Notes: generated by a model from the sequence alone, not told the origin. DNA of 40,542 bases from Candidatus Margulisiibacteriota bacterium (GCA_003242895.1 QKMY01000007.1:1-40542), one strand, 5' to 3'; counted from the stretch's first letter, positions 2 through 30,390 are shown. Made by a program: numbers and translations.

Positions 2-352
2 AATGCGGGAGTTAAGTTGGTGTTAGCTGGGAAGGACACTCGAGGAGAAATATTTGGCGAGCTAAAAATTAAAATATCAGCAGGATGTGCTGACGCTATA
101 ACTGAGGGATTTATGTTGTTAGGTGGTAAATTAGATGTTCCAGAGCTGTTGGAAAAGCTAAAAGCTAAAATAGCAGCAGGGAAGTGGGAGGCAATAAATG
201 CGGGAGTTAAGTTAGTGTTAGATGGCAGGTTAGATGTCAAGAATATAGAGGAGGAGTTGAAAGCGCAAATACGAGCAGGCGATTGGCATTCAATACAGGT
301 GGGAAAAAACTTGGTGTTAGATGATAAGCTCACAATAACTGATGCGGGTATG
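2..352 (+). repeat. Tandem ~33-residue coding repeats
   Basis: At least three copies of a helix-rich unit are visible, with the pattern AIxxGxxLVLDGxLDVxxIEEELKAxIxAGxW. At DNA level the first 33 bases of the window recur at 196-228 with only a few changes. That is an offset of 195 bp, or 65 codons, equal to two units. This near-identity points to recent duplication of a two-unit block. The array continues beyond the left edge. Confidence 0.75.
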
Positions 353-8964: not shown

Positions 8965-9153
8965 CAAGGTGTTAGCCTGAATACTCTTGTGCCCTGCCGG
9001 TGCCTTTCTCCAGGAATATATTTGATTTCAAAAATCGATATATCTCTGAATATTCCTTCAAAGATTATTGCAGTTATGCACATAGATTATGTTTGTAATT
9101 AAAAATACCTGGGTAAAATTTTAAATAGATCAGTGAGATTCGGAGGAATCAGA
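8965..9153 (+). promoter_or_regulatory. Intergenic region with a possible weak promoter for the helical-repeat gene
   Basis: There is no gene here. TTGTAA at 9093-9098 and TAAAAT at 9114-9119 could be -35 and -10 elements, but the 15-bp spacer is short, so this is only a candidate. GGAGG at 9142-9147 is the ribosome site for the ATG at 9154. Confidence 0.3.
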
Positions 9154-12018
9154 ATGTTAAATAACAAAATCATAGCGATAAATCCAGAAAAGCTCATTCA
9201 GGATAAAATATCTGAAGCTAAAATCCTTGCTGCCAAAGATTCCTGGCGAATATCATTAGATATTAAAAAATATGGAATTACAGATCAAAAGGCTCTTGCT
9301 GAAATTGCAATGATAGCCGTTACGAAGAACGGCTGGGCAGTATCGGAATATATAAAAAACTATGGAATAGAGGATCAAAAGATTCTTGTTGAAATTGCAA
9401 AAATTGCTGTAGCTAACGATTCACAGTTTTCAGATAGAATTGGGAATTTTGGAATAGTTGAGGAGAAGGACCGAATTGCCATTGCCAAGATTGCTGCTGC
9501 TCATAGTGGCTGGTACACAACAGTGCATATTAAAAATTATAAAATAACAGATCAAAAGGCTTTGGTTGAAATTGCAAAAATTGCTGCAAAATCCGATGAT
9601 AGAATATCGGAACGTATTCAGGAATATGGGATTGAGGATGCAGATTCTCTAATTGAAATTGCAAAAATTGAAGCTGCAAAGGATGGGGAATGTCTATCAA
9701 AATATATACAAAACTATTGTAGTATCAGACGTGAATCACAATATCACTCTGGCTATTATAATGAATCGTTAGAGCATAATCCGGTTGAATTTGCTGAAAT
9801 TGCTAAGATCGCAGCAACTCAGAATGGAGAATTGACATCCAAATATATTAAAGATTATCGGCTAACTGACCAGGAACCATTACTTAACATTTTCCTGACT
9901 TCTATTAACCAGAATATTGATTCCATAAAATATAGAGAAAATTATAATTTTAGTGAGCTAATTCATTTATACATTAATGATATTATTAATGACATGAATT
10001 TTAAAAAAAATAATGAAGATAATAATGAAAATGATTTATATGGACGGTCAATAAAAGCTTATCCTGAACTTCAAATTATAATGAAAAATGAAACTCTCGA
10101 AAATGATTTGAAACTAATTCCTGAAGAATATAATGAACTAAAATCCTTTATTCAAAAATTACGGAATCCGGAATTGCAAATTCAAATGCTTACATTACTT
10201 GCTAAAATCTCAATTAGTAGTAAACTGGCAAAATTACCTATAGAGGAAATCAACGCATCTATACCTATTATTAAGGCAATATTTGATTTGCGGGACCCTG
10301 TCCTAAAAGTAAAGATAGCAGATATATTTCTCGATTTCTTTTTTAAACATAATTCCAACCAAAAAATCAGTGAATGGCTGAACGAGAATATTGATACCTC
10401 CAAGTTGAAATTTACTCAGTCAGGCAACATTATTATCGGGAAATTGCTATGTGAGAGTTTGAATGGTAATTCATTCGATAATAACAGTATATTTATTATG
10501 GATAAAGTCATTACAACAACTAGAAAGAATATCAGCCAGAATGATCGGATGCGCTTATATAATTCCTTAATGACCTTGAAGGAATCCTCTTTATCCGATT
10601 CCGACAAACAACGACTTATCTCCCTGGCTTGCTCAAGGTGTAAATACATAGAGGATCCCGATAATACCGATGAACCTACGATAAAAAAAGTTGTTGAAAT
10701 ACTGATCAAACAATTATCTATTGTGTCAATGTTCATCAATTTGGGAAAAACAGATGACTTATTAAAAAAACAAGCTTCAACGGATTTTGAAAAGCAACTA
10801 AAGCAGCTAGTTGAAAATGATTTTGGAGTTGCTCAGGTAGCTAATCTCTGGAATAAACTTCTGAAAAACGTTTTCTCACTCCGTGATCGTGATGGCATTT
10901 TCCATTTTGGAGCAAAAGTCTGCACGGTTAGCTATCAGGCAAAAAATTTATTCTCTAAATTTCTAACTGCGGTGCTGGAAGGAACTTATTCTGAGTTCAG
11001 ATATAATACTGTGCGAATTCATCTGGATAAGGTATTTGGTAACAATCAGGAGTTAGAGGCCAACTGGCAAAAAGGTACATCTCTTACTTATGAAGAAGTT
11101 GCAACTAATGAGAAAAGCGAAGAATCTCACGACATGGATGTTACTTCATATTTAAGGCAGAAGATTCTTGCCGATAAGCATCTCGAAGCTAAAGATTATT
11201 CATATATTCACGACTTTTTATCTGGTAATAAATCTACATCATCAAATATCAAGACAGCTATAGAAGATAAGCAGACCGAATTAAAGCAGAAATCCAGGTT
11301 GCCGGCAGCCAGGGAAGAATTGCCGGTGCTCAGCAATCAATTATTGCGATTAAGAATACAGGAAATGATGATAACCCTACTTAAAGCTGAAGATATAAAA
11401 AGTAAGAGGAATATAATTAACGAGATTAATCAGTTAGTTGAGAAAAAACAGGTATTACCTGAAGTATTTCTTGCTGATCTGCAAGGATTGTCAAAGCAAC
11501 TCATTGGCGATTTCAAATCTGACCGACAAAAATGGTCAGTTGAAGATACAGATAGCTACGGAGATATGTTGCTCCTCGGAGTAGAGGTGGATGGGAGTTG
11601 CCAAAGCATATATAAGAATATTGACCTTAGTAAATGTCTGCTTGCCTATTTAACTGATGGCAAAAACCGTGCGCTTATTATTCGCGGGGATGATGGCAGA
11701 ATAAAGGGTCGCGCCATTTTTCGTATTCTCTCTGACACAATAGCCGAAAAACCTGTTCTATTCTTAGAGCGCACTTATGTCAGCGGAGAAATAGGACAGA
11801 CAGAAGCAGAGACGGCTATTCTAGAGATGGCAAAGCGCAGGGCACAATCTCTTGGGCTCACACTGGTCGGCAAATATGAAGGTGGTGAAAAGTTTAATAA
11901 TATACTTAAATCCCTGGGAGGGAATTCTCCCTTTGAATATATTGATGCGCTTGGAAATAAAGATAATCGTAGCACTTTTGAGATTTCGAGCGGTACTGCA
12001 AACGTTATTTATCCATAA
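9154..12018 (+). CDS. Helical-repeat protein with C-terminal GSCQ/KCLLAYL-type domain, function unknown
   Basis: 954 residues from ATG 9154. A GTG at 9133 is in frame, but CGGAGGAA sits just before the ATG, and the protein then begins MLNNKIIAIN, matching the start of the protein at 15299. Residues ~24-240 are repeats of 29-30 residues (YGITDQKALVEIAKIAA type) that should form paired helices. The middle is charged and helical. Around 813-930 is a compact domain with GSCQ (814-817), a KCLLAYLTDGK stretch, RAIFRIL and VLFLERTY. From memory, similar domains end large repeat proteins of Chlamydiota and resemble the PcfJ type; this needs a search. No signal peptide or membrane segment is seen. The gene looks more AT-rich than its neighbours. 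Scaffold or effector-like roles are guesses. Confidence 0.8.
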   Translation: MLNNKIIAINPEKLIQDKISEAKILAAKDSWRISLDIKKYGITDQKALAEIAMIAVTKNGWAVSEYIKNYGIEDQKILVEIAKIAVANDSQFSDRIGNFGIVEEKDRIAIAKIAAAHSGWYTTVHIKNYKITDQKALVEIAKIAAKSDDRISERIQEYGIEDADSLIEIAKIEAAKDGECLSKYIQNYCSIRRESQYHSGYYNESLEHNPVEFAEIAKIAATQNGELTSKYIKDYRLTDQEPLLNIFLTSINQNIDSIKYRENYNFSELIHLYINDIINDMNFKKNNEDNNENDLYGRSIKAYPELQIIMKNETLENDLKLIPEEYNELKSFIQKLRNPELQIQMLTLLAKISISSKLAKLPIEEINASIPIIKAIFDLRDPVLKVKIADIFLDFFFKHNSNQKISEWLNENIDTSKLKFTQSGNIIIGKLLCESLNGNSFDNNSIFIMDKVITTTRKNISQNDRMRLYNSLMTLKESSLSDSDKQRLISLACSRCKYIEDPDNTDEPTIKKVVEILIKQLSIVSMFINLGKTDDLLKKQASTDFEKQLKQLVENDFGVAQVANLWNKLLKNVFSLRDRDGIFHFGAKVCTVSYQAKNLFSKFLTAVLEGTYSEFRYNTVRIHLDKVFGNNQELEANWQKGTSLTYEEVATNEKSEESHDMDVTSYLRQKILADKHLEAKDYSYIHDFLSGNKSTSSNIKTAIEDKQTELKQKSRLPAAREELPVLSNQLLRLRIQEMMITLLKAEDIKSKRNIINEINQLVEKKQVLPEVFLADLQGLSKQLIGDFKSDRQKWSVEDTDSYGDMLLLGVEVDGSCQSIYKNIDLSKCLLAYLTDGKNRALIIRGDDGRIKGRAIFRILSDTIAEKPVLFLERTYVSGEIGQTEAETAILEMAKRRAQSLGLTLVGKYEGGEKFNNILKSLGGNSPFEYIDALGNKDNRSTFEISSGTANVIYP
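9220..9870 (+). repeat. Coding repeats of 29-30 residues
   Basis: Six to seven units follow the pattern G-I-x-D-Q-K-A-L-V-E-I-A-K-I-A-A with a spacer and then S-x-Y-I-K-N-Y. Units at residues 41-160 are the best kept; the last two are interrupted by a Ser/Tyr/His-rich insertion around 9720-9780. The units differ at DNA level, so this is an old array, unlike that at the left window edge. Confidence 0.75.
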
Positions 12019-12502: not shown

Positions 12503-12846
12503 GTTTAATCCTTCATTTTATTTTTTTTGAATATTGTATCCTTACCTTTATAGTTTATCAAACTAACGATTAACCTGAGAGTTCCTTTTGAAATAATTTT
12601 TTGCTGTAAGCAGGAAATAATTTCTAAAGGAATGCTTTGTGATGCTAAGTCTATTAATTTTCTCAGTTTTTCAGGTTTTAACTGATGTCGGTATTTAGGG
12701 ATAGTACCGCGGTTAGCGCAAAAACGCGAAGTTCAAGAAGGGTAGATATGTTTAACAACTTATTCACAGGGGCAAAATAAGAATTGAGAGAAATAATTGA
12801 TAGTAACTGCGATATATTAATAGGTATCTATTTAAAAGGAAAAAAT
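12503..12846. other. Intergenic region between divergent genes
   Basis: 344 bp without a convincing gene. A 10-base direct repeat, GAAATAATTT, occurs at 12590 and 12614. TTGATA near 12797 could be a -35 element, but no good -10 follows at the right distance. A ten-codon reading frame at 12748-12780 has a plausible ribosome site but nothing to show that it is made. Confidence 0.4.
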
Positions 12847-15267
12847 ATGAATATTTTCACAACTAAATTGATCAGTATGCAGGAAGAAATTTCAATTAAG
12901 ACACCCGCTGAGAGCGCCTTCGGAGTGAACGAAGGTGTTCATGCGAATGCACTTTCTGCAATTCAGCTATCAGTGAAGGCGAGAAGCCTCTATGGCTATA
13001 TATCCCGGAACCGGATAATCGGACTGGTGCCGGATATGGGATTCGCACGAGAGGGCCAGGAGACAAAACAAATAAGTTTAAATTCCGAAAAAAATATAAT
13101 GTTGTATCCTGAAAGCTATAGTGCGTTTATTCTCTACAATATCCTTACCAAGCTGATTAACGGATCGGTAATGATACTTGGGGACCCGGGGACAGGTAAG
13201 ACCAGTATGGCTATGATGATGGGGCTGGCAGCCGGCAGAGAATATGACCAGCTCAAGAAAGAAGTTGTCCATGGACAGCCGCAATTAACAATAAGTGACC
13301 TGTTCGGGAATCTGGACCTGGCAGAGTACCAGAAAGGCATTGTTAAGGCCATATTCCACGAACGTATAACCAATCAACAAGCTGACCTGATAATTGATGA
13401 AATTAACCGTATCCCAACTAAGACCCAGTCAGCAATCTTGAGCTTGCTGGCAGAAAAATATGTGGAGTTGTTTGGGGAGGTCATGGATGTTAAGGACAGG
13501 GCAGTATTTGCCACGATGAATGATAAGAACGGTGGCGGGACCTATGAATTGATACATGCACTGCTTGATAGATTTGAAATATCCGTAATGGCCTATCCGC
13601 GCAATTATATATATACAGGAATAACCACACCTGACAATACCGCCCAGTTTCCCGAAGAGTCTATTTTCAAGGCTGATGAACTCAGTGTTGTAAGAAAACA
13701 GATTGATGGGCTGGGGGTATCGCAAGATGCACAGCGCAGGCTGAACTATTTCTTATCGCTGCTCAATGCTGCGGAGAATGCTGCATCTAAACCGGAACAC
13801 GGGTACAAGGCTAACTTGTCGGGCTCAGGAGTAAAAAGTTCCTCGGTATTTAACAGCAAGGGGCATGATGACCCCAAAACAACATTGAGTGCTTTGATCG
13901 AAGGAACAGTGAGTGACCGATTCCTGCGTTCAGTGCTGCATTATGCAAAAGCACTGGCGTGGTTCAGGGGTAAGGAGCAGTGCGATACCGAAGATATAGC
14001 TGCGGTGATCATTCCGGCATCTTTGCACCGGTTTACACCATCGCCGCATTTTGAAAAGATTGATTTGATATATAAATATGATGCCTGGGAGCGAAGCCGG
14101 TATTTGTGGCAACAGGCTATGGAAAAATATGATACAAGGTTCCCGAACAAACAGGAAACAGTAAGCGATCTGAAGAGCGTGCCGGAATATTTTACTGATG
14201 CACAGTATGAACAGGCCTCAGGATACGATAACTACTGGGACCTGAAGGATGCAGTAGAGGAACTTCCTGGATCGGGCGAGAAGCTGGCAGTAATTTATAA
14301 ATCGATGGAAGATTTTGCAAAAGGCCACCTGGAAGGCTCGGAAGGGCTGGAAGAACTACTGGCTATGAAGCTTTTGTTCTATGAAATATATGGGCAGGTG
14401 CTGGACGGCAAGGGACTAATGCCTATCACACCAGAAGAGACAACAACAGCTTCACTGATAAAAGAAAAAATTGTTCAAAAGACCAGCCCGGCAGCAGTAA
14501 CGAATAATATTGACAGTACTACTGACAGTGTCGGCATGAAATATGTGAGGCTTCCCGGAGGCGATAATATACCGCTCGGTTCGGCCGAGTTTAGCGAGAA
14601 TCCACCGCATATAGTGAGCTTGTTGCCATTCAGTATAAGTGAGACGTGTGTTACCCAAGCGATGTATGAGCAGGTAATGGGGATCAATCCATCTGGCTTC
14701 ACAATAACAAATGATAAAATCATTGCTGCTGGAATAACGGATACCGGCAGGCATCCGGTTGAGCAAGTCAATTGGGTTGAAGCTAATGCATATGCCCAGA
14801 AGTTGTCGATGCTGGCAAATGATATCAGTCCCACTATAAAAAATGAAATTAAGGATTTGAGTCCGGGAGACTATAATAAATACACGATATGGCATCCTAA
14901 TGCCCGTTTATTCAGATTGCCTACAGAAGCAGAATGGGAGTATGCAGCTCAAGAGGAAGGCGACGAATCCTGGAGTGCCCGGAATAGCGGTGGCATAACT
15001 CATAGTGTGGATAAAGGAAAGGCAAATATTCATGGTCTAAAGATGAGGGGAAATGTACTGCAGTGGTGTTCCGATACCTGGAATTTAGATTTTTGGAAAA
15101 CAGCCAGTAGTAAAGACCCTGTAAATCTGGGTACAGGTAAGGACCGTGTGGTACGCGGTGTTTCCTGGCTCCATAAGATAGAAAACCAGTTTCGCGCCAC
15201 GTACCGTTGCTCCAGTGGTGCATTTTTTCGTATCGACCATATTGGTTTTCGTGTTGTCAGAACTTAA
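12847..15267 (+). CDS. MoxR-type AAA ATPase fused to a C-terminal FGE/C-type-lectin-fold domain
   Basis: 806 residues from ATG 12847, chosen over a TTG at 12784 because AAAAGGA lies six bases before it. The AAA core has Walker A GDPGTGK (112-118), Walker B LIIDE ending D184-E185, sensor ATMND and a lid domain, in the MoxR style. A helical linker (~330-555) leads to a formylglycine-generating-enzyme-like domain from residue ~564: YVRLPGG, TEAEWEYAA, GNVLQWC, RGVSW, IGFRVV at the end. Of the two catalytic cysteines of true FGE, only one position is Cys (C788 in YRC) and its partner is Arg, so it is probably a binding module, not an active FGE. The VWA partner follows 31 bp downstream. MoxR ATPases remodel targets with a VWA partner. 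Confidence 0.9.
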   Translation: MNIFTTKLISMQEEISIKTPAESAFGVNEGVHANALSAIQLSVKARSLYGYISRNRIIGLVPDMGFAREGQETKQISLNSEKNIMLYPESYSAFILYNILTKLINGSVMILGDPGTGKTSMAMMMGLAAGREYDQLKKEVVHGQPQLTISDLFGNLDLAEYQKGIVKAIFHERITNQQADLIIDEINRIPTKTQSAILSLLAEKYVELFGEVMDVKDRAVFATMNDKNGGGTYELIHALLDRFEISVMAYPRNYIYTGITTPDNTAQFPEESIFKADELSVVRKQIDGLGVSQDAQRRLNYFLSLLNAAENAASKPEHGYKANLSGSGVKSSSVFNSKGHDDPKTTLSALIEGTVSDRFLRSVLHYAKALAWFRGKEQCDTEDIAAVIIPASLHRFTPSPHFEKIDLIYKYDAWERSRYLWQQAMEKYDTRFPNKQETVSDLKSVPEYFTDAQYEQASGYDNYWDLKDAVEELPGSGEKLAVIYKSMEDFAKGHLEGSEGLEELLAMKLLFYEIYGQVLDGKGLMPITPEETTTASLIKEKIVQKTSPAAVTNNIDSTTDSVGMKYVRLPGGDNIPLGSAEFSENPPHIVSLLPFSISETCVTQAMYEQVMGINPSGFTITNDKIIAAGITDTGRHPVEQVNWVEANAYAQKLSMLANDISPTIKNEIKDLSPGDYNKYTIWHPNARLFRLPTEAEWEYAAQEEGDESWSARNSGGITHSVDKGKANIHGLKMRGNVLQWCSDTWNLDFWKTASSKDPVNLGTGKDRVVRGVSWLHKIENQFRATYRCSSGAFFRIDHIGFRVVRT

Positions 15268-15298
15268 TTTTTGTACTATTTGAAAGGTTTTGAACTTA

Positions 15299-17269
15299 AT
15301 GAATAACAAAATAATAGCAATAAAGAATGAACAATCCCGCAATCTTCTTTCTATAGACGAATATAATAAACTCTGGAGGCTGACCGGCCCGCTGCTTGGA
15401 AATGTCAGCCTTAGACAGCCAACAGTTCTGAGGACCGAGCAAGACCTTAAGAAATACCCGGAAATGCAGGACGAGATCGGTGGTATCTCTATACCGACTA
15501 AAGATACGTATATTAATGTTCAAAAATTCCAGAAAGCCTTCGGCCCGTTTACGCAAGATGACTGGAATGAAATAAAAAAATGGATTGAGAATGAAATAGA
15601 TACCAACAGAGATCCGAAAAAAACTACTGTTACGAGAAATCTGCTGGGTGGAATTGCAGAACAAGTCAACTCAGGCACAATATCGATCGAAAAAGCTGGC
15701 TTTCAGGTGTATATGATCATGCTTATGGGCCATGAAATCGGGCATCATAAGTGGATACCCTATGATTTAAAAACATTGATTCTGATTGTTGACTCTGTTT
15801 ATAAGGTGACCGAAGATCAGGACAAGGCTGCTTATATTGCCAATGTTTACGAAGATCTGGTTATTAACGATCGGCTGTTTAGCGAACGTGGGGTGCCTAT
15901 GCATCTGCTCTATGAAAAAATGACCGATGAGAAATCGAATATAAGCCCGTTCTGGCAACTTTATATGCGGACATGCGAACTGCTCTGGCAGCAATCTATT
16001 TTACCTGAAGGGAAAAAAGAGGTCCTCACTTTCTCGGAAGATCTGTTCAAGGCTCAAAGCACGGATATCTCGCCGGAGCTGGAATGCGATGCCGCTTTAC
16101 TGGTCAAAATAATACGTGACAGTCAACCTCGTAATTATATTATAAAAGCCAAAGAAGCCGCAGAGATAATAAATAAATATTATGATCCTCAGGAGAATAG
16201 TAATCCTTCGCCTCTCGACAGCGATATGTCTTCCGGCAACAAAAAGTCCTCTGCAGGGGCAGTGGCTAAAGATGCAGCGAAGAAAGCCGCTGAAGGTATG
16301 AGCCGAAAACAGGAGGGGGAGAATGGATATGGGGCAGTACGGGAATTGCCGGAATATCAAGGTCTGATGCGGCGTATGAACCTGGCTGATGATACGATAG
16401 AAGCAACAATCATGTACTATCTGGACCTGGCTAGCCCGTATGCTGTGCAATTTCCTTCTGTGCCACGCTGGCATGGTGCTGAAGTCATGGAAGGAGTTGC
16501 CGGATGGGACCCTTCCCAAGATCCTATCGAACGACTGGACTTGCCATTATCTTTGCAGCAAGGAATTATTATTCCCGGATATACAACCCTCCAACGTGAG
16601 TATGTGGAAGGTCTCGACACTAAAGAAACAATTGAACCGCCTGATTTGCTTATTTATACCGATGCGTCAGGGTCGATGACTAATCCTAATAAAAAATTAT
16701 CACCACTTACCCTGGCAGGAACAATTGCTGTGGAATCTGCACTAAATTCAAGCAAACAAGTGAGAGCCTGCAACTATGAAACTCAACAGAACTACGTTGC
16801 TATGGACGGGATGTCGGATAATCGTAACGAAATAATGAAATACTTACTTAACTACAATCCAAGACAGGGAAGTACCGAATTTCCTTTTCAAGATTTGGTA
16901 GAAGCTTATGATAATTATAATAATGAACCGGTACATCTGGTTGTTATATCCGATGGTGATTTTTTAAGCGATTTGAGAGCAAATATAGAAGGAAAAACAG
17001 GTCTGCAGATACTTGAAGAAATGCTGCTTTCAAGAAAAGGCGGCGGAACCTTATTCCTTAATTCAGATACGAACGGTATCATAACCGCTTTCAAAGATTT
17101 TGCCTATGAAAAAATTGAAATTAGCAATAAGCTTACAAAAATATACATTCCTGACCTCAAACTAACCATATATCCGGTCCAGCACTGGAATGGCCTTGAA
17201 GCTGCCGCTGCTGATATGTCACAAGCTACATATGATCCTTATGGATATAAAAATATGGTGGGATATTAA
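15299..17269 (+). CDS. VWA protein with HEIGH metallopeptidase-like domain, partner of the MoxR ATPase
   Basis: 656 residues. ATG 15299 is preferred over TTG 15290, which lies too close to GAAAGG at 15282; from here the protein reads MNNKIIAIK, like the protein at 9154. A HEIGH zinc motif (145-149) is followed by VYEDLVIND (183-191), the same layout as HEGGH...VIEDGR in the protein at the left edge. A linker of charged helices comes next. The VWA domain has a complete MIDAS: DASGS from D455, Thr in QGSTEF, and SDGD. CobT-, CbbO- and NorD-type proteins pair a VWA with a MoxR ATPase in this way. The gene lies 31 bp after the ATPase gene on the same strand. Whether the zinc site cleaves anything is unknown. 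Confidence 0.87.
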   Translation: MNNKIIAIKNEQSRNLLSIDEYNKLWRLTGPLLGNVSLRQPTVLRTEQDLKKYPEMQDEIGGISIPTKDTYINVQKFQKAFGPFTQDDWNEIKKWIENEIDTNRDPKKTTVTRNLLGGIAEQVNSGTISIEKAGFQVYMIMLMGHEIGHHKWIPYDLKTLILIVDSVYKVTEDQDKAAYIANVYEDLVINDRLFSERGVPMHLLYEKMTDEKSNISPFWQLYMRTCELLWQQSILPEGKKEVLTFSEDLFKAQSTDISPELECDAALLVKIIRDSQPRNYIIKAKEAAEIINKYYDPQENSNPSPLDSDMSSGNKKSSAGAVAKDAAKKAAEGMSRKQEGENGYGAVRELPEYQGLMRRMNLADDTIEATIMYYLDLASPYAVQFPSVPRWHGAEVMEGVAGWDPSQDPIERLDLPLSLQQGIIIPGYTTLQREYVEGLDTKETIEPPDLLIYTDASGSMTNPNKKLSPLTLAGTIAVESALNSSKQVRACNYETQQNYVAMDGMSDNRNEIMKYLLNYNPRQGSTEFPFQDLVEAYDNYNNEPVHLVVISDGDFLSDLRANIEGKTGLQILEEMLLSRKGGGTLFLNSDTNGIITAFKDFAYEKIEISNKLTKIYIPDLKLTIYPVQHWNGLEAAAADMSQATYDPYGYKNMVGY

Positions 17270-18476: not shown

Positions 18477-21400
18477 ATGAGAAATAAATTTATTGCAGGA
18501 ATAGAAGAACGAGTAATAGCGCGAAGTGTAAGTGAAATATCCAGGAGCTACAGCACAATTGCTTCTACTCAGCATTTGCGGGCTGTTTTTCCCGGGCAGG
18601 TACTTACTTATAACAGGACCAGTGACGGGTATACCGACCCGAAACTGTATCCAGACCATTGTGTTATCAGCACTCCTTTTTATTCGAAGCTGATCGAACA
18701 AATACCAGAGTTGAAAGATTATTCGTTTAAACTCTTTCGTACTGCCGGCTTAAATTCCAATACCTATATTACCACGCTGATTAACAGCGAAACTAAAGAA
18801 ATCCTTTTATCCAAAGACCTTCTTGAGTTTCTTCGGTTCGGAAAACGTGACTATAAAGGACAGGGAGAAGAACTAGTTGAGTTGGCGATCCTAACTAACC
18901 TGCTCAAAAGCACTGATTCCACGATCCGTAACGGCGCTAGCCGGATGCTGAAAAATATTGATGATAACCAAGAAAAAAGACGAACCCTCAACCGGATTGT
19001 TTCTCTTTATACCAGCCATCTTGCCTTCAACGATCAACAGAAAAAGGAGATCAAAGCCGAAGGGATAACCGTTAACGTCAAGGCCGGTGCCTTTGAAGAC
19101 AATTTGCTTAAGCTCAGCCTGGCGCTGGCCGGAGCCCGTGAGCGGAACACCAATCTCGTTATTTTCCCGGAATTGATTGTCTCTTCTTATCAAGTGCTCG
19201 ATTCCGTCGAATATTCACAATTCCTGGCAAAACAAATGTCCGTTGTACAAAATCTCAACAAACAACAACGTTACTATTTTAAAGAAGACATAACCGCATG
19301 GCTTAGTCAGCAACTGCAATTATACGATATCGATAATACTCGGGCTATCATGAGTGAATTCGCAAAAGCGCTCGACGACATTGATGCCGGAGATCTGGCA
19401 ACCGATTCCTGGCATGATGAAACCAAGCAACCACCGCTAAAACAGGAACGGCTCAGTTTTGCTTTGCAGCAGATACTGGAACGACATAACCTTGAGCCCT
19501 GCTCTGAGATTATCAGACGGCTTGAGAATAATTATGATGCTTTTGGAATGGCCAGCATTATCCCTGTAGCCATTGCCAGTAACGACAAACCGTTCAATGC
19601 TGCATTCTGTTTCCGAGGGGATGGAAGTTTGGGTATGCAGGTTCACAAACAACGGCTAGCTGATGATCCCAGTTCATATTTTTATGAAAAACATATCTTC
19701 TCGCCCGGGGATCATAACCGTAAACATGTGTTTCTCTGGAGAGGGCAAAAGATCGGGGTCTATATCTGTGAAGACATGTGGCAGGAGTCTAACCAAAAAG
19801 TCGCAGCCAAACTCATGGATTCTCAGGGTGGAATTATTCTGGATAAAAGGCTGGAAGGAACGCTGAATAGTGCAGCCGATATTCTGATCAATACTTCAGC
19901 CTCGCCCGAACAGGTCGGATACCTCATTCCTCATAAACTGAACCCGGAAAATTTTCGCAACCTTCGTCCTGGAACAGCGATTATAGAGAACATGGCCTTT
20001 ACACTGGAAAATCCTCGCACCGACACCCGGGAAGATCTGATCCGAACTGTCAGCGAACAATACGGAGTGCCTCTTCTTTACATTAATTCACTGGGCGGCC
20101 TCGACCATATTCTGATGGCCGGTGCAAGCTACCTGACTAACGGTAAAGGCGAGTTCGTCGGGACATCCGAACAATACAAAAACTCGATCCTCAGTTTCTC
20201 GTTCTCTAAAAAAGGAGAAATAAGTGTTGACCAGGTTAACCAGGACTATTTGATCAAAGGACCCGAAGAACAAGCGGTACGGAACCTGATCCTGAGTGTC
20301 GCTGATTACTGGGAAAAAAATAATATCCGGTTTGCCGCTTTCAATAACGATGGAACAGTCCAGGGTGATTTTTTGCAACGTATTCTTGGAGAGGCCCAGA
20401 ACCTTCATCATCAACATCTCGTGGAAAAACTTTATCGTCAGGCACAGGTTGCATGGCCGGACAAGACTCCGCAAGATATCAAAAAGCTAGTCGGGAAACA
20501 AGCATTGGAACAGGCAGTCATTATTAAGACCTTTATCATGCCGGCGATGAACCATCGGTTTTTCAATGTGCTGTTCAAAGGGTTGTGGAACGCTTTCAGC
20601 AACAAAACCGAAGTTCAGGTTTCGATCATGTTCAAGCCGGAATGGTTCCTGTCCGGGATGAACCTTACTTTCCTGGCAGCAATAGGATTATCGAACATAG
20701 CTACACATATCACCGGCAATTATGTGGTTTGGCCATTTATTAATACCTTGCTTAAAATTGCAGGTATACAAGGAAAAAGCTATAAAAATCAAGGAGAAAT
20801 GCTGCCTGATCAGGTAACGAATCCTACTGTATTCCGGGAAACACTCAGCCCGGAGGTGATCAACGAACTGAAAACCGAATTGCACAAGAGTATCCCGGAT
20901 AAAGGTCAACGGAAAAAAATCGATCGGTTGATCGATATCTGGGTTGAGTTGGTTGGTCACGTGGAGAACCTGTTTTTCAATAATATCTCTGCACTCCGTA
21001 GCTATTTAGTGACCCGGGAAATGGACCGGCGGGATGCCAAAGGACAATACGCAGTCAATATAGGATCGCTTACCGAAGACAAAAAGAATCGGGGCAACTT
21101 TACGCCCGGCGGGATTGAAGCAAGCGGATTTGCCCCACTGCAATCCATCAGCAGTGCGACTGTCAAATTGCTTTATCTCTATACGATCAAACAAGATCTG
21201 TCCCAATCTCTGAGCGGTGTCTCTGATTTTGCTCTCTCACGAAAACTTCGCCGGACCATCAGTGATCTGTCTAATACCCGGGATGATTTCAGCTTTTTGC
21301 GCAACATTTTCAGTTTAAACCGGATTGACAAGACTGGTATGCTTCTTTATGAGCTTTCTATCTGGAAAGATATCCGGGCACTTTCTTCTGACCCACACCG

Positions 21401-22247
21401 ACAGGAAGCACTCGATAAAAAGATCAATAAACTGGAAAAAATCCTGGGTAGCAAAGAAGCAACTGTCAAAGCAATGAAAAAACCCTTGAAAATCGGTGGT
21501 CTGGAGTTTAAATTTATGCCGATGCGCTTAAACAAAGTCGCGCCCAGCAGTATGAATGCGCTTCTTGACCGGTACCTCACTACCAAGAACCTTGAGCAGT
21601 TCACTGTTATGAAAGAATTTCTCGATCCGGAAAACCTGTTCAACTGGGAAGAATATGCACAGTATATTGCTTACCATATTCTCCGCTACGAAAAAACGAA
21701 ACATAAAAACCAGGGGATCAATGGTCCGATTTTTAATATAAAAACTCCGGGATCTCACCGGGAAACTGTCTCTCTGGAGCGGTCAAGGCGAGAAGAGATC
21801 GTTTTAACTATACTGGAACAAAGCAAAGTGTATGAGCGCAAAGCGCTACGCGATAGCGCCCATCTGGAACAAACCATAGAGATGTTCGATGATATCGCTG
21901 TTATCAAGGAAGATCGTAACCAATGGCTTGACCGGGATTATGAGCAGCACCGGATTGAAGAAGAACTGACCAGGCTCAGTGAACAAGCGAGAAAACATGG
22001 ACATTATCCAGCAGTCATTATTGACGGGCTCAACAGCCTGACTGACGTTATCGCCTTTAATGCCACCAAAAAACGCGGCTTGAAAACGATTGTCCTGACT
22101 TCCACTGAAGAGCTCAAAGATTTGAAGATTCCTGGGAATATCGCTAATCTGGATTACATCTATGTATTTGACAGCAATACTGAAAAAGAAGAGTATTTGC
22201 AAACTCTCATGGGCACTCCGAAAGCTCATGAAATAAAATATCACTAG
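18477..22247 (+). CDS. Nitrilase/NAD-synthetase (NadE)-like giant protein with degenerate synthetase domain
   Basis: 1256 residues, ATG 18477 after AGAAGGGA. It begins MRNKFIAG, like two other proteins here. Residues ~1-190 are an extension of unknown type. The nitrilase (glutaminase) domain keeps the E-K-C triad: E232 in FPELIVSSY, K391 in VHKQR, C431 in YICEDMW. About 90 extra residues lie between E and K. NASP-type and GGLDHILMAG stretches match glutamine-dependent NAD+ synthetases. The second half can be aligned with the synthetase domain, but the ATP loop SGGxDS is replaced by MPAMNH (688-693), and GTGNxSE by VNIGSLTED. So NAD synthesis seems unlikely. About 300 residues at the C terminus are unrecognised. 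NadE is normally 540-680 residues. It may sense glutamine/NAD or make ammonia for a partner; this is inference. Confidence 0.75.
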   Translation: MRNKFIAGIEERVIARSVSEISRSYSTIASTQHLRAVFPGQVLTYNRTSDGYTDPKLYPDHCVISTPFYSKLIEQIPELKDYSFKLFRTAGLNSNTYITTLINSETKEILLSKDLLEFLRFGKRDYKGQGEELVELAILTNLLKSTDSTIRNGASRMLKNIDDNQEKRRTLNRIVSLYTSHLAFNDQQKKEIKAEGITVNVKAGAFEDNLLKLSLALAGARERNTNLVIFPELIVSSYQVLDSVEYSQFLAKQMSVVQNLNKQQRYYFKEDITAWLSQQLQLYDIDNTRAIMSEFAKALDDIDAGDLATDSWHDETKQPPLKQERLSFALQQILERHNLEPCSEIIRRLENNYDAFGMASIIPVAIASNDKPFNAAFCFRGDGSLGMQVHKQRLADDPSSYFYEKHIFSPGDHNRKHVFLWRGQKIGVYICEDMWQESNQKVAAKLMDSQGGIILDKRLEGTLNSAADILINTSASPEQVGYLIPHKLNPENFRNLRPGTAIIENMAFTLENPRTDTREDLIRTVSEQYGVPLLYINSLGGLDHILMAGASYLTNGKGEFVGTSEQYKNSILSFSFSKKGEISVDQVNQDYLIKGPEEQAVRNLILSVADYWEKNNIRFAAFNNDGTVQGDFLQRILGEAQNLHHQHLVEKLYRQAQVAWPDKTPQDIKKLVGKQALEQAVIIKTFIMPAMNHRFFNVLFKGLWNAFSNKTEVQVSIMFKPEWFLSGMNLTFLAAIGLSNIATHITGNYVVWPFINTLLKIAGIQGKSYKNQGEMLPDQVTNPTVFRETLSPEVINELKTELHKSIPDKGQRKKIDRLIDIWVELVGHVENLFFNNISALRSYLVTREMDRRDAKGQYAVNIGSLTEDKKNRGNFTPGGIEASGFAPLQSISSATVKLLYLYTIKQDLSQSLSGVSDFALSRKLRRTISDLSNTRDDFSFLRNIFSLNRIDKTGMLLYELSIWKDIRALSSDPHRQEALDKKINKLEKILGSKEATVKAMKKPLKIGGLEFKFMPMRLNKVAPSSMNALLDRYLTTKNLEQFTVMKEFLDPENLFNWEEYAQYIAYHILRYEKTKHKNQGINGPIFNIKTPGSHRETVSLERSRREEIVLTILEQSKVYERKALRDSAHLEQTIEMFDDIAVIKEDRNQWLDRDYEQHRIEEELTRLSEQARKHGHYPAVIIDGLNSLTDVIAFNATKKRGLKTIVLTSTEELKDLKIPGNIANLDYIYVFDSNTEKEEYLQTLMGTPKAHEIKYH

Positions 22248-24451: not shown

Positions 24452-24493
24452 ATGGCAGTACAAGAAGATAAAGATACGATTATTGCAAGTTAG
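24452..24493 (+). pseudogene. Truncated gene start (13 codons)
   Basis: AAGGAG at 24441-24445 stands seven bases before an ATG and opens MAVQEDKDTIIAS, which stops at 24491-24493, inside the 3' end of the convergent 1585-residue gene. The signals look like those of a full gene, so the rest may have been lost when the convergent gene arrived. It could also be chance. Confidence 0.3.
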
Positions 24494-27400
24494 CTGCTTT
24501 GAGCGCATTGTCATATGCTTTGATCGCCATAAGATAATAGAATATACCTCGTTTATCTCCGATGTCTTTGTTAATATGGAAGGGTACGAGTGACGCATAT
24601 ACGTTAGCAAGCTGAAACAAGACCCGGCATCTCCATGAATCTCCGACCCCTATTCCCTTGAATAGAGAATCTTTTTCCAGGTATTTGTGCATTTGATCGA
24701 AAATACCTATGTATTTTCTGGTTACAGTATCGTGCAGTAAGGGATAAAAAGTAACATCAGGCACTTTTCCGCTGCTGTCTATTTTAATTTGAATATTATC
24801 ATCAAAATAATGCCCGTAGTCATAGAGACCTACGGAACTATGTAATAGTTTAGCCATTTCATAGGCCAAATCATTTCCCTCTTTCATGCCTCTGGGATCT
24901 ATCAGCATAAAGTTAAGGTCCTGATACTGATCGGGTAGCCGAGAAGGATCGAGCAAAATGTTATCAAAATGAAAGTCGCCATGGACATCTACCATACAAG
25001 GCGGAGTTAAAAGCATTCTGATATGTTCATTCTGCTGTATTAAGTCCAGATAATGCGATATGTTATAATATTCCCTGCCATTAATTGAGAGTGCCGGCTG
25101 TGAAATAAGTTGAGCTAGATTTTCGCTTTTTGTTTTTGTTTCCTCAATTCTTTCCCTAACTTTATTCACGTGGAACCGATCGACATAATCACCGACCTCA
25201 TTAGAACTCACTCTATTATATAGACTGTTATTCATTTGATTTACTATTTGTTCGATAGCGGATACAGCTAGTTCTGAACTCAGCTCTCCATCAATGATAA
25301 GCCGGCAGATGCTCTTCCCCCAGTATGGCATTTCGTACATCGCCTGTTCAGGGGAAATCTCATGCTTCAATATTTGAGGAAAGTACCGGGAAGATTCCTT
25401 TGATAAACTGCCTATCCAGTTAATTTCTTCAACGAGTTTTTTATATCCTGGCCCGGTAGCAGTTTTTCTGACAATTAAGCCGTTTTCACTGCCAACCAGC
25501 ACTGTTGAGGCGTATGAGCCACCGGATAATTCCTTTATTATTTCCGAACTGTGGTTAGCCGGTAATAAAGGAAATTCATTCGTATCAGGTATTTGCATAC
25601 TCAACTCAAATAGCGTTATGCCTGAACTGTTTGACTTCAATAACCTACACTGGTAATTTTCTTCTATAGCTTGCTTATTCAGATAATTATCAGATTGCCT
25701 GCTCAGTATAATTAGTAATTTCCCATTCCTTCCCAGATGTGATTTTGCAGTCTTTAGCAAGTTTTGCAATATTTCCCCATTCCAGTCGGTAGTTCTTTCA
25801 TCAGGGATCACAGTCACTCCCGCAGGATAGTCAGATTGAGACATCGGCCGCAACCCGTTATAAATAATATACTCATACTGACCTAAGCCGGATAGGTTTT
25901 TTTGCTCATAAATACGTCCGGGTGAACATTCGTTTGCCAGGCAATTCATTTTAGTAACTGCTGAGGAAAGTGCTGAAAAACATACAGTATCCACATTCAG
26001 CTGTCTCCTGGAAGCATTGACTGTTTGCAGGCCGGATTCTCCATTAAAAACAAGCACGTTGTTGTCATGGCTTATTACGTCAAAAATAGCGCCAACTAAT
26101 GGCTCTATGTCTACATTGGATATTTGCAGAAATTCCTGTTCTTTTTTCATAGAACCAACTGCAGTTTTTCCCATCAGGTCAGCAAATGTCTGATAGTAAA
26201 CATCAAGCCAGGGGGAGTATAATCTTAGGGAATAAAAAAATCCTTTCAAACCAAATAACCTATTGATGCTGTCATCCAAAGGATCTAACTGATCAAAAGG
26301 ATTTTCAATAAATCGTAAATCATGTTTTTTTATTATTTCTTCAGCTTTTTTTAAAACAAAGTCTACGATAGGGTTATCGAGAGGTATGCTGTTCAATTTA
26401 TGTAACCAGACTCCTCGATTGTATCCGGTATCATCATTTTTAAGTGTTAACGATATCGGACAGCCTGCATACGTTAGTAATGTTGCCGAAGTTTCTTTGC
26501 CTAATTCTTTTGGTGATCCCCAAGGCAATTTAATATCTAAGCCGAAAAGACCGGTTATGAAATTTTTATTATTTTCGTTGATTGGTACGTTATTTAACTG
26601 AAAAGTTTTATACTGGCGAAGGTAATCCGGGTCTAGTCCAAACAAATCATTAAGCAGAAAGTTTGTTACGTCATTAATCCCTTCGCTAAAAACTTTTTCT
26701 GCTTTAACATATAAGTTGTTTACCTCGTTCATCGATAACGTAGGTAGCGCAGAAGAACTTTCAAAATTCTTCCCAACCTGAAGGTCATCCGCTGATATTT
26801 GATTGTCAGGATGACTATTGCTTAAATACAATTCGACATAACCATCTCTTGTTCTGACTGTCACTGATCCTTGCTGAGATATTCCTATAATCTGCCCGGG
26901 GCTGGAATCATGATGAGAATTATTCTCTATATCTAGCTTTCGTGCATTTTCTATCATTATTCTTTTGCCTTCATAGGTTGTAAAGGCTTCTGGTAAAAAA
27001 TTTTTAAATACCCTAACTCCAGTAATAATCTCATCCGCTGATAGGTCGCGCCAGTTTATTTGTTTTTGATTATTAATCCCAATATCAATGAGAGGCTCTT
27101 GTTCGCTTTTCTTTTTTCGCCAGGAAAATTTAGTAGGCTCGCCGATTTGTGGTACTGGTAGGTCGGTCCCTTTTCCAATTTCGTCCAGATAGGATACTGC
27201 TGCTGCAGTTGCCATCGGCAAAATCCTCTGGAACATTTGATAAGCGGTTTCGTTTTTATCTATTGGGACATCCCGAACTTGTTTAACTATATTGCCCGCA
27301 TCAAAAGCAGAGTTCACTTCATGCCAGGTAAGCGCAGTGGTCTTTTCGCCAGCGAGTATCTGTGCTTGACGCGGGCTAGCCCCTCTATATTGTGGCAGCG

Positions 27401-29237
27401 GGCTCGGATGGTAATTAACCAATCCTTTTTTGAAGGAATCGAAAAGTGCTGACGGCATTTTATGAGACCATTGCATAATCATGCCAACATCAGCGTTTAG
27501 CTCGTGAAGCTTTGTTTGCAGTTCATTGACTTTCTGCGTGTATAACGGATCATCCTGATCAGGAAATATAAGAACAGGAATACCCTTTGCACGAACAAAA
27601 TCTTGGAATTCTTTTGCTTTCCTGGGTATTGCTATAGATATAAGGTTATGGTTGCTTTCTAAAATATCTTCGACAAGCTTTTCTCCGCTTGCAGTTCCCC
27701 TTGAAAAAACTACGACGTTCTGAGCCCGGATTGGTTTCTGGAGTAAACAGGTTGCGTACTCGGCGCTGCTTAGCGCAGTCAGATATGAGTTGTTAATCTC
27801 TGGGTTTACCTCTATATTTAACGATAGTTGATATCTATGCTGCAATATTTCCTGAACAAATTTTATTCGCAGCTCACCCATTTTCCCGCTGACAAACGGA
27901 CCGCCAAGGAATACATTTTCGAAAGGGAACGATCTTTTTCTTAACGCTATAAAACGAGCAGTATATTCACTTAGCATTCTAATTACAGCTTCTGCTATTT
28001 CTCGTTCATCAGTATTACTGCTGTCTAAAAGTTTTTGAATTATTGGTCCGGCTGTATTGTTAGTAATTTCCCCGAAACTATTTAGATCAATATTTTTTGC
28101 AGTCAGAACTTCTAAAAGTATATTGGCAAAACCTCTTGAAGCACAATATTGCTGATATACGCCCGGTGTTCCCGTTGAGCTGTGATTGCGCGCCTTGGAC
28201 GAGGTATCAACTACGATTCTGCTATCGATAGCCGTGTAGTTCTGATGGGTTCCATTTTCATCGATGTATCCTCCCATTAAACTTGTGCCTTCTATGTGGA
28301 AATATGTCTTTGGTTTTAGTCTTGTTGATAGAAAAAATCCTGTCGTTTCCGTGTCATCCAGGATTGCGACCGGAACGTTGAAGTGTTCTTTTATTAAAGC
28401 AGCCAGATTGTTGATCATCTTTTCGTCTGGTGTTCCTTCATAGTGACTTAGAGCGCCGCTGAGCAGAAGTGCTCTGTTCCTGTCCGTGCCGCCACACCAA
28501 CTGATACAAATTGCCGACAAATCTGCCGGTGTAAACTTTGCAGTATCGAGGGTCCTTTTTATTGTTCTGAGTAATCTTGCAATGAACTGAGGCGCCGGCT
28601 CACCAGTAGCGTTAAAAGTTGGGATGGTTTCTGAAGAAACTATTTCATTGTTTTTCTTTACTACTAATTTTGTATTAGTGCCGCCGATGTCGAGCCCGAT
28701 TGCGGTCCCATCGCCGGGATCATAGGAATGGATGGTATCAAAGGCGGGCGATTGAGGCACAATTTGAGATAGTGTCTCCAATGGGACAAATTCGACTATA
28801 TGTCCTGGTGTTTGCTTGTTTTCAATAAGATTAATCTGGTTATATTTGTTATTAATCCGGGTCAACAGACGAGCTTGATATATCTCCGGGAGTGCAACAG
28901 ATATACTTGTTGGAATATATGTATGAATTAAGTCGTTTATATAGCGTGCAATATAGGAAATAATAATGTTTTCATGTTCTTTCCGAAGTAAATCAGCCGA
29001 GGGTACATTGATCGCGAGTTTTCTCACTCCGTGACGATAATCTCTAATTACGAGAGTTATCGGATCTCGATCCTTCTCTGATAGCATGGAATCAATCTTT
29101 GCAAATGTTTGATGCCAGATAAACGGATCATCTTCATTATGTAATTTGGACAACAAACGCTGACAGCTAAGAACGGACTGGGGATTATCTCCTACTGTTT
29201 CTGTTTCTGTAGCAATAAGTTTAAATGAGAGTGTCAT
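24480..29237 (-). CDS. Fusion protein: ROK/ASKHA-like kinase, formyltransferase, degenerate methyltransferase-like part, APH-like kinase
   Basis: 1585 residues. 1-170: unrecognised. 170-500: ROK-like sugar-kinase fold with GLDIGGTNTK (181-190), GGTD and FLGGPFVSGK. 505-850: formyltransferase with HPSPLPQYRG; the catalytic N608, H610 and D646 are all present, and the H-to-D distance of 36 equals that in Fmt, followed by an Fmt-C-like barrel. 860-1240: a domain with a weak Rossmann pattern (VLVFNGESG, then YEYIIYNGLRP) that may be a decayed methyltransferase. 1250-1585: aminoglycoside/choline-kinase-like fold with HGDFHFDN (1419-1426) and D1447 in LIDPRG. It is translated four bases after the DegT gene. 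The set resembles amino-sugar pathways in which a DegT aminotransferase makes an amine that is then formylated (ArnB/ArnA). Product unknown. Confidence 0.85.
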   Translation of the reverse strand: MTLSFKLIATETETVGDNPQSVLSCQRLLSKLHNEDDPFIWHQTFAKIDSMLSEKDRDPITLVIRDYRHGVRKLAINVPSADLLRKEHENIIISYIARYINDLIHTYIPTSISVALPEIYQARLLTRINNKYNQINLIENKQTPGHIVEFVPLETLSQIVPQSPAFDTIHSYDPGDGTAIGLDIGGTNTKLVVKKNNEIVSSETIPTFNATGEPAPQFIARLLRTIKRTLDTAKFTPADLSAICISWCGGTDRNRALLLSGALSHYEGTPDEKMINNLAALIKEHFNVPVAILDDTETTGFFLSTRLKPKTYFHIEGTSLMGGYIDENGTHQNYTAIDSRIVVDTSSKARNHSSTGTPGVYQQYCASRGFANILLEVLTAKNIDLNSFGEITNNTAGPIIQKLLDSSNTDEREIAEAVIRMLSEYTARFIALRKRSFPFENVFLGGPFVSGKMGELRIKFVQEILQHRYQLSLNIEVNPEINNSYLTALSSAEYATCLLQKPIRAQNVVVFSRGTASGEKLVEDILESNHNLISIAIPRKAKEFQDFVRAKGIPVLIFPDQDDPLYTQKVNELQTKLHELNADVGMIMQWSHKMPSALFDSFKKGLVNYHPSPLPQYRGASPRQAQILAGEKTTALTWHEVNSAFDAGNIVKQVRDVPIDKNETAYQMFQRILPMATAAAVSYLDEIGKGTDLPVPQIGEPTKFSWRKKKSEQEPLIDIGINNQKQINWRDLSADEIITGVRVFKNFLPEAFTTYEGKRIMIENARKLDIENNSHHDSSPGQIIGISQQGSVTVRTRDGYVELYLSNSHPDNQISADDLQVGKNFESSSALPTLSMNEVNNLYVKAEKVFSEGINDVTNFLLNDLFGLDPDYLRQYKTFQLNNVPINENNKNFITGLFGLDIKLPWGSPKELGKETSATLLTYAGCPISLTLKNDDTGYNRGVWLHKLNSIPLDNPIVDFVLKKAEEIIKKHDLRFIENPFDQLDPLDDSINRLFGLKGFFYSLRLYSPWLDVYYQTFADLMGKTAVGSMKKEQEFLQISNVDIEPLVGAIFDVISHDNNVLVFNGESGLQTVNASRRQLNVDTVCFSALSSAVTKMNCLANECSPGRIYEQKNLSGLGQYEYIIYNGLRPMSQSDYPAGVTVIPDERTTDWNGEILQNLLKTAKSHLGRNGKLLIILSRQSDNYLNKQAIEENYQCRLLKSNSSGITLFELSMQIPDTNEFPLLPANHSSEIIKELSGGSYASTVLVGSENGLIVRKTATGPGYKKLVEEINWIGSLSKESSRYFPQILKHEISPEQAMYEMPYWGKSICRLIIDGELSSELAVSAIEQIVNQMNNSLYNRVSSNEVGDYVDRFHVNKVRERIEETKTKSENLAQLISQPALSINGREYYNISHYLDLIQQNEHIRMLLTPPCMVDVHGDFHFDNILLDPSRLPDQYQDLNFMLIDPRGMKEGNDLAYEMAKLLHSSVGLYDYGHYFDDNIQIKIDSSGKVPDVTFYPLLHDTVTRKYIGIFDQMHKYLEKDSLFKGIGVGDSWRCRVLFQLANVYASLVPFHINKDIGDKRGIFYYLMAIKAYDNALKAANLQ

Positions 29238-29241
29238 TTTC

Positions 29242-30390
29242 TTATTTCCTCTGTATTACTTCGAGTAACTTTTCGCAAACATAACCGACAGAATCTTCTG
29301 TCATATCAAATCCTGAAGGTAAATTAATGCCGTTTGCAGATACCTTCCGGGCAGTAGGGTTGTTCTGAGGAATATAACCTTGCATGCTGGAAATCGGGTA
29401 ATGCATAGGTCTGATCATAATATTTTTAGAGTGCAGCGCTGAAATTATCGCATCTCTGCGGAGCCCGAAATTTTTATTCAATACTATAGAGGTAAGCCAG
29501 AAAGCATTTCTGGTTCCTGGTTTTTCGACATTCAGTTGTATTCCTTCAATATGTCTGAGCTGATTATTGTACCAATCGAATATTTGTCGTTTTTTTGCAA
29601 CTAAGCTGTCAATATCTCTAAGCTGTGCCAATCCTAAAGGAGCAACGAGGTTCGGCATTTTATATTTATAGCCGACTCCATCAAAAATATAAGGCTCATT
29701 GGTATTCATATTATGATTTCCAAATTTTTTAGCTGTTTCATAAAAAGAAGTATTATTGGTAACCAGCATTCCTCCCTGACCTGTGGTTATTATCTTTGAT
29801 CCTTCGAAACTGAATGTCCCTATATCACCGAGAATACCTGCTTTTGTACCGTTGTAAGATGCACCAAGCCCGGTAGCCGCGTCTTCAAGGATATATAAAT
29901 TATGTTTTCGTGCGATTTCTCTTATGGCAGCCATATCACACACATTTCCGTAGTTATCGACAATGACTATAGCCTTTGTTTTCGGTGTTATTTTCTCAAT
30001 AATAGAATCCGGATCAATTGTCCAGGTGTCTTCTGAGATATCTGCCATAATTGGTTCGGCGCCGCAATACTTTACAGTATCCGCACTGGCAACCCAGGTT
30101 ATTTCCGGCACAATTACTTCATCGCCTTCAGTAATGCCTAATGCCAGCAATGCAAGATGAAGAGCGCCTGTGCAGCTGGATGTGGCAAGCGCATGCTTTG
30201 CCCCGACGTATTGAGCAAATTCCTGTTCAAACTGTTGGATATAATCATAAGCTTTTTCTCCCCACCCAGTGCGGGCAGCATCTGCAACCATTGCTACATA
30301 TTTCTCTGGCATGGGAGGCCTGCCCGTCAGGAGAATTTTATTTCGTGCCGGTGTGTGTGGGAGTGAGATGATTTTTGGATAATGATTCAT
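29242..30390 (-). CDS. DegT/DnrJ/EryC1/StrS family PLP aminotransferase
   Basis: 382 residues, full length for the family. PLP-lysine K199 lies in SFEGSKIITTGQGG. EDAATGLGAS (169-178) supplies the Asp that holds the pyridine nitrogen, and SSCTGALHLAL (71-81) the phosphate-binding turn. These enzymes put an amino group on keto-sugars bound to nucleotides, or on related alcohols. Catalytic Lys is present, so it should be active rather than a PLP-free dehydrase. ATG 30390 has AGGAG seven bases upstream. The large kinase/formyltransferase fusion begins four bases after its stop, so the two are co-translated and likely act on the same compound. Upstream DNA is shared with the divergent FKBP gene. 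Confidence 0.92.
   Translation of the reverse strand: MNHYPKIISLPHTPARNKILLTGRPPMPEKYVAMVADAARTGWGEKAYDYIQQFEQEFAQYVGAKHALATSSCTGALHLALLALGITEGDEVIVPEITWVASADTVKYCGAEPIMADISEDTWTIDPDSIIEKITPKTKAIVIVDNYGNVCDMAAIREIARKHNLYILEDAATGLGASYNGTKAGILGDIGTFSFEGSKIITTGQGGMLVTNNTSFYETAKKFGNHNMNTNEPYIFDGVGYKYKMPNLVAPLGLAQLRDIDSLVAKKRQIFDWYNNQLRHIEGIQLNVEKPGTRNAFWLTSIVLNKNFGLRRDAIISALHSKNIMIRPMHYPISSMQGYIPQNNPTARKVSANGINLPSGFDMTEDSVGYVCEKLLEVIQRK

Follow-up and report, generated by a model that had tools for sequence, protein, structure and literature searches.

The window, a stretch of 40,542 nucleotides, is an entire contig from the 3.35-Mb genome of a Candidatus Margulisiibacteriota bacterium (GCA_003242895.1, QKMY01000007.1:1-40542), which is 100% complete with 0.24% contamination. 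Its minus strand contains two genes that lie in the same orientation with a gap of 4 bases and form a two-gene unit, the first encoding an aminotransferase and the second, downstream of it, a long fused protein. The features of this unit, with the residues of the fused protein, are as follows.

29242-30390, minus strand: DegT/DnrJ/EryC1/StrS aminotransferase, 382 aa (ORF and PF01041)
24480-29237, minus strand: fused protein, 1585 aa, single open frame (ORF and codon scoring)
28713-29237, minus strand: residues 1-175, orphan N-terminal alpha/beta domain without family or PDB relative
27738-28712, minus strand: residues 176-500, ROK-like sugar kinase without zinc motif (PF00480)
27204-27719, minus strand: residues 507-678, formyltransferase catalytic domain (PF00551, 1.1e-22)
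26826-27071, minus strand: residues 723-804, formyltransferase C-terminal domain (PF02911, 1.4e-8)
26088-26792, minus strand: residues 816-1050, orphan segment without family or PDB relative
25623-26087, minus strand: residues 1051-1205, PrmC/HemK-like class I methyltransferase fold (PRK14968, MTS)
24483-25622, minus strand: residues 1206-1585, APH-fold kinase (alignment, AlphaFold2 and Foldseek)

Both genes have Shine-Dalgarno-like sequences, AGGAGAAA directly upstream of the aminotransferase ATG and AGGAAA upstream of the fusion-gene ATG. An earlier note, made from the DNA alone, had described one intact chain of 1585 residues, and the frame was found to be uninterrupted over that length. 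When codon usage was scored, the own frame scored as coding and better than the +1 and +2 frames in all the 100-codon blocks of the 1585-codon frame, and the GC content across the fusion gene was even (0.36-0.42, against 0.40 for the window). The uniform coding signal and the even GC thus gave no sign of a frameshift, chimeric join or misassembly in this gene, and the concern raised earlier that the chain could be split by sequencing error was not supported. Among the window genes, no dehydratase or nucleotidyltransferase gene was found adjacent to the pair and no biosynthetic cluster was found around it. Glycosyltransferases and an O-antigen-ligase-like gene are present on the same contig at 4.3-9 kb, ~15 kb from the pair. 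The plus strand of the window further encodes an AAA_5/VWA protein with a GvpN-like AAA domain (2-4258) and a fusion of a MoxR-type AAA protein with an FGE-sulfatase domain (12784-15267), both of which match profiles of MoxR-vWA ternary systems. Two further ORFs on this strand, of 961 aa (9133-12018) and 659 aa (15290-17269), have no Pfam or NCBIfam match. A second chimera of 1256 aa (18477-22247, plus strand) contains nitrilase and NAD synthase-like pieces within its first 620 residues and is without profile match beyond them.

The weakly matching parts of the 1585-aa chain were rescanned as separate segments against Pfam and NCBIfam, by which their scores rise relative to the whole-chain scan. 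The chain was resolved into six segments, in the order orphan, ROK-like, formyltransferase, orphan, PrmC-like methyltransferase fold and APH-fold kinase. All four parts named in the earlier note were recovered by the profile searches, but its four-part layout had missed residues 1-175 and 816-1050. The AlphaFold2 models of the chain were confident only inside single domains, and the regions with pLDDT below 50, which include most of residues 816-1120, part of the ROK domain and the formyltransferase C domain, were left uninterpreted. No Pfam or NCBIfam family and no PDB relative was found for either residues 1-175 or residues 816-1050, and the latter also had no convincing relative among 383 genomes; in a model of the first 830 residues, the confidence over residues 21-130 was about 70-83. 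A 1086-aa ORF in another genome (G150) matched the middle region of the chain weakly and was rejected as a chance match, since it looks like a tricorn-type protease.

The ROK-like part matched PF00480 at residues 180-296, with 17.6 bits (0.003) in the whole chain and 23.5 bits (4.7e-5) when the segment was scanned alone, against a cut-off of 22.9. Its phosphate loop LDIGGTNTK is present at residues 182-190, and in an alignment with two ordinary ROK proteins D295, the candidate catalytic aspartate, aligned with the Asp of NDAN. Most ROK proteins typically carry a zinc-binding cysteine motif, CxCGxxGC; this motif is missing here and TGTPGVYQQYCASRG was found where it was expected. The confidence of the ROK domain model was about 65-75 at its start and 80-90 in the helical part near residues 371-430, with values below 50 in between. 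Searches of viral contigs, made to deepen the structure alignment, found no ROK relatives, and the N-terminal half of the chain gave only weak ROK matches in phages and plasmids.

The segment described earlier as Rossmann-like does exist, but by profile it is methyltransferase-like with a PrmC-like fold and eroded motifs. The match at residues ~1056-1201 is weak (PRK14968 1.3e-4 and MTS 6.1e-4 for the segment alone). FNGESG stands for motif I, VCFSALSSAV lacks the acid after strand 2 and YNGLRP replaces NPPY. The loss of the acidic SAM-binding position and of NPPY makes an active enzyme unlikely, and judging from these motifs the part is probably devoid of SAM-dependent methyltransferase activity.

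The formyltransferase part gave a strong match, with 81.1 bits for Formyl_trans_N against a cut-off of 26.1 and a confidence of about 75-85 for the core. Asn-His-Asp is the superfamily triad of formyltransferases such as Fmt and ArnA. This triad is complete as N608, H610 and D646, confirming the earlier claim that the catalytic residues are present, and it does not vary when the part is aligned with its housekeeping and viral relatives. The fold matched Fmt, ArnA and WbkC, and sugar N-formyltransferases including WbkC (5vys, 6e-11) were found among both sequence and fold matches. The possibility of a second Met-tRNA formyltransferase was considered, because TIGR00460 fmt is the best profile for the chain (2.5e-30) and the best PDB sequence matches of this part are Met-tRNA formyltransferases. 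The profile score of 105.7 bits is however well under the cut-off of 201.5, and the tRNA-contacting loop (QPDRPAGRG...PPPVK) is absent, with 11 residues from IAIPRK to GIPV where three Fmt sequences have about 24. Furthermore, the host already has an ordinary fmt beside peptide deformylase elsewhere in the genome (contig C35). A second Met-tRNA formyltransferase is thus very improbable.

The adjoining aminotransferase matched PF01041 with 358 bits (8e-107) against a cut-off of 19.8. The PLP-binding lysine, which separates DegT aminotransferases from the His-type dehydrases, is kept as K199 in SFEGSK. Its best PDB relatives are perosamine synthetases (271 bits), and inosose aminotransferases reached about 164 bits or less; the earlier assignment to the DegT aminotransferases could therefore be refined to the nucleotide-sugar kind. 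The relatives in plasmids and other genomes adjoin glucose-1-phosphate cytidylyltransferase and CDP-glucose 4,6-dehydratase, or GDP-mannose 4,6-dehydratase, and acyltransferase or methyltransferase genes are often near. The best genomic relatives point to CDP-sugars, but no enzyme of the CDP-glucose route was found over cut-off in the host genome and a CDP-sugar pathway in the host is not supported. The host encodes gmd (587 bits, cut-off 415), and rmlB and rmlA were also over cut-off, so that 4-keto-6-deoxy nucleotide sugars should be available.

The APH part was aligned with 22 relatives, which share the motifs GGSYAST (1239-1245), the VRK lysine K1258, HGDFHFDN (1419-1426) and IDPRG (1446-1450). 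The last two hold the catalytic residues, which the earlier note had rightly reported. The profile match at about residues 1378-1464 is weak (TCAD9 4e-4 and APH 2e-3 for the segment alone). A second AlphaFold2 model showed about 90 confidence over most of this domain and low confidence in the middle of the chain, and Foldseek matched the domain to APH(3')-Ia, FN3K-like proteins and choline kinase, with aminoglycoside phosphotransferases best. A defence-system reading of the gene pair was rejected, as PADLOC had no match to the chain, its matches to the aminotransferase were just generic PLP ones, and TCAD9 was far under its cut-off.

Relatives of the APH part were found in plasmids (Legionella, Citrobacter and Variovorax), in phages (phage G gp311 and IMG/VR contig L070) and, by a peptide-pattern scan of an 84,980-species collection, in genomes of Synergistaceae, Clostridiales, Treponema, Aminicenantes, Marinimicrobia, Streptomyces, Pacearchaeota, Omnitrophota and Methylacidiphilaceae. 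A typical relative has about 555-640 aa, with a MobA/LicC-like nucleotidyltransferase as the front region in several, and across bacteria, archaea and phages the family is mostly seen in glycan clusters, as the C-terminal half of proteins that join a nucleotidyltransferase to the kinase. A recurrent cassette (L152, L156, L158, L160, L162 and L070) combines such a fusion with an RmlD-like reductase, and in several genomes an AAA_33 P-loop kinase and a small cupin protein are present as well. Found in bacteria, archaea and phages alike, the cassette resembles an uncharacterised pathway for the activation of sugars or alcohols. In phage contig L070, the fusion is followed by a LicD protein. The nucleotidyltransferase fusion and the cassette neighbours, taken together, place the family in a putative role in activating sugars or alcohols for surface glycans; we know of no substrate assigned to any member of this subfamily.

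Other members show further arrangements. In Bacillus phage G (L026:5998-8427), gp311 lies directly ahead of a HAD phosphatase and a glucose-1-phosphate thymidylyltransferase, with two alpha-glucosyltransferases near, and the same kinase-HAD-nucleotidyltransferase order is seen in a Legionella plasmid (L027). In an Omnitrophota protein of 2861 aa (L167:3921-12503), a Nudix-like insertion interrupts an APH domain of this family, and an RmlD domain and HEAT repeats are also present. The host genome itself encodes a tandem fusion with two MobA-like nucleotidyltransferase domains inside a polysaccharide-type cluster (L068:1501-3144; G000:C21:42815), which was rejected as a pathway partner because its neighbours show no link to the gene pair. 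No nucleotidyltransferase profile was found anywhere in the 1585 aa of the chain.

The pair might instead make or modify a non-glycan metabolite such as an aminocyclitol or amino-polyol, the DegT enzyme aminating a keto-cyclitol or keto-polyol, followed by N-formylation, with the kinases serving in activation or self-protection. DegT enzymes do include scyllo-inosose aminotransferases, which were also among the PDB matches, and both the likeness of the APH fold to aminoglycoside phosphotransferases and the missing nucleotidyltransferase are in keeping with such a product. On the other hand, the aminotransferase resembles the inosose enzymes less than it does perosamine synthetase, the APH relatives sit in glycan clusters and the window shows no biosynthetic cluster around the pair, which together leave a non-glycan product unlikely.

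The distribution of the fusion was searched at several depths. The ROK-formyltransferase-APH layout did not turn up in any of 74 genomes of the phylum, where the formyltransferases are separate genes and an APH relative occurs only in one genome (G005), apart from the other parts. That relative (L024:7008-8750, contig C69) has an in-frame TAA just past the glycine-rich loop, which may reflect gene decay, a split gene or an error of assembly. Among 383 genomes from many families the layout was likewise not found; matches to the N-terminal half were confined to ROK, in frames of 336-495 aa, and the APH part matched in two other genomes. None of 20 APH-bearing loci, picked by short peptide patterns from the 84,980-species collection, had ROK or formyltransferase relatives in the flanks (0/20), no whole-chain relatives were found in viral contigs, and a literature search on the ROK-formyltransferase-APH fusion found nothing relevant. 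The earlier reader, to whom the layout was new, had proposed a search for the same fusion, and these searches of the phylum, the wider genomes and the APH loci were all negative; the fusion is so far a single known case, as far as searched. The peptide-pattern scan could miss distant full-length relatives and may leave out the window's own genome, and uniqueness is thus not proven.

A single case also fits a fusion without single-pathway meaning, in which a chimera-prone lineage has brought together enzymes that serve different tasks, or the chain has partly decayed. The eroded methyltransferase part is consistent with this, and the second chimera in the window and the Omnitrophota protein add some weight by showing that long chimeras occur. 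However, catalytic residues are retained in the aminotransferase, the formyltransferase and the two kinases, and the frame is uninterrupted with a uniform coding signal, which makes such a fusion rather unlikely.

Our tentative reading, held at somewhat under an even chance, is that the gene pair encodes a compact set of enzymes for making an N-formylated amino sugar, or a compound much like a sugar, for use in a surface glycan or a secreted molecule. It draws on the two-gene unit with its 4-base gap, the nearness of the aminotransferase to perosamine synthetase and the nucleotide-sugar clusters of its relatives, the formyltransferase with its triad kept, its tRNA loop gone and a separate fmt in the host, and the sugar N-formyltransferases such as WbkC among its matches. 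In addition, gmd, rmlB and rmlA in the host, the fusion of APH relatives to nucleotidyltransferases in glycan or LicD-type clusters, and the glycosyltransferases and O-antigen-ligase-like gene on the contig point in the same direction. Against this reading, no dehydratase or nucleotidyltransferase gene adjoins the pair and the glycan genes of the contig are ~15 kb off, the chain scores best against Met-tRNA formyltransferase, the aminotransferase relatives suggest CDP-sugars whose enzymes are below cut-off in the host, and conservation gives no support where the fusion has no relative.

If the pair does act on an amino sugar, the aminotransferase would swap the 4-keto group of a nucleotide 4-keto-6-deoxy sugar for an amine; the simplest substrate would be GDP-4-keto-6-deoxymannose, for which the host has the 4,6-dehydratase. 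The formyltransferase part would then move a formyl group from N10-formyl-tetrahydrofolate onto the new amine, as WbkC formylates GDP-perosamine and ArnA formylates UDP-Ara4N. The ROK and APH kinases may phosphorylate a free sugar or sugar-like alcohol for activation or attachment, and the methyltransferase-like part with residues 1-175 and 816-1050 may be mainly scaffold. The amination and N-formylation steps are proposed from family and context, and both the phosphorylations and a single shared pathway are conjectural. From the observed domains, gene pair and catalytic residues we infer the substrates, the order of the steps and their sharing of a single pathway.

It is doubtful, though conceivable, that the chain is a dedicated single-chain enzyme for a new N-formylated, phosphorylated amino sugar or amino polyol, in which the aminotransferase product would be channelled via the formyltransferase to the two kinases, and the repurposed methyltransferase fold and residues 1-175 and 816-1050 would act as substrate-handling or scaffold modules. 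If there is one pathway, a single polypeptide would combine kinases with a sugar-type N-formyltransferase, which would hint at a formamido sugar, activated or phosphorylated and so far undescribed, in this little-studied lineage. The weight of the fusion is limited by its being a single case so far, and the wider lead is the APH kinase subfamily, whose members in bacteria, archaea and phages are usually joined to a nucleotidyltransferase and encoded in glycan clusters.

Among the known systems, WbkC, the GDP-perosamine N-formyltransferase of Brucella, together with perosamine synthetase has the same kind of aminotransferase and an N10-formyl-THF-type formyltransferase with the same triad. The formyltransferase part of this chain matches WbkC by sequence and fold but, unlike it, is joined to two kinases and further segments. 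ArnA with ArnB, likewise a match by sequence and fold, is similar in that a DegT aminotransferase is partnered by a formyltransferase whose N and C domains are joined to a further enzyme; the decarboxylating dehydrogenase domain of ArnA is however missing and kinases are found instead, with an ArnA family score of 67 bits against a cut-off of 777 and no dehydrogenase profile. With ROK sugar kinases the chain shares the phosphate-1 loop, the candidate catalytic Asp and the phosphate-2 and adenosine-region glycines, but differs by lacking the zinc cysteines, by an identity of about 20% and by being fused. PrmC/HemK-type methyltransferases match residues 1051-1205 weakly across the whole fold, whereas their SAM-binding acid and NPPY motif are lost in the chain. 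The nucleotidyltransferase-APH fusions (for example L150-L162 and L070, with phage G gp311 as a stand-alone form) have APH domains 23-32% identical to that of the chain, with all catalytic motifs, but carry a MobA/LicC-like domain in front where the chain has ROK, formyltransferase and methyltransferase-like parts. The chain fails a defining feature of each of ArnA, fmt and the nucleotidyltransferase-APH family and is thus a member of none of them; in kind, it is a multi-enzyme fusion around a sugar-type formyltransferase, as in ArnA. Each recognisable enzyme in it belongs to a known family, and their joint arrangement is new as far as searched.
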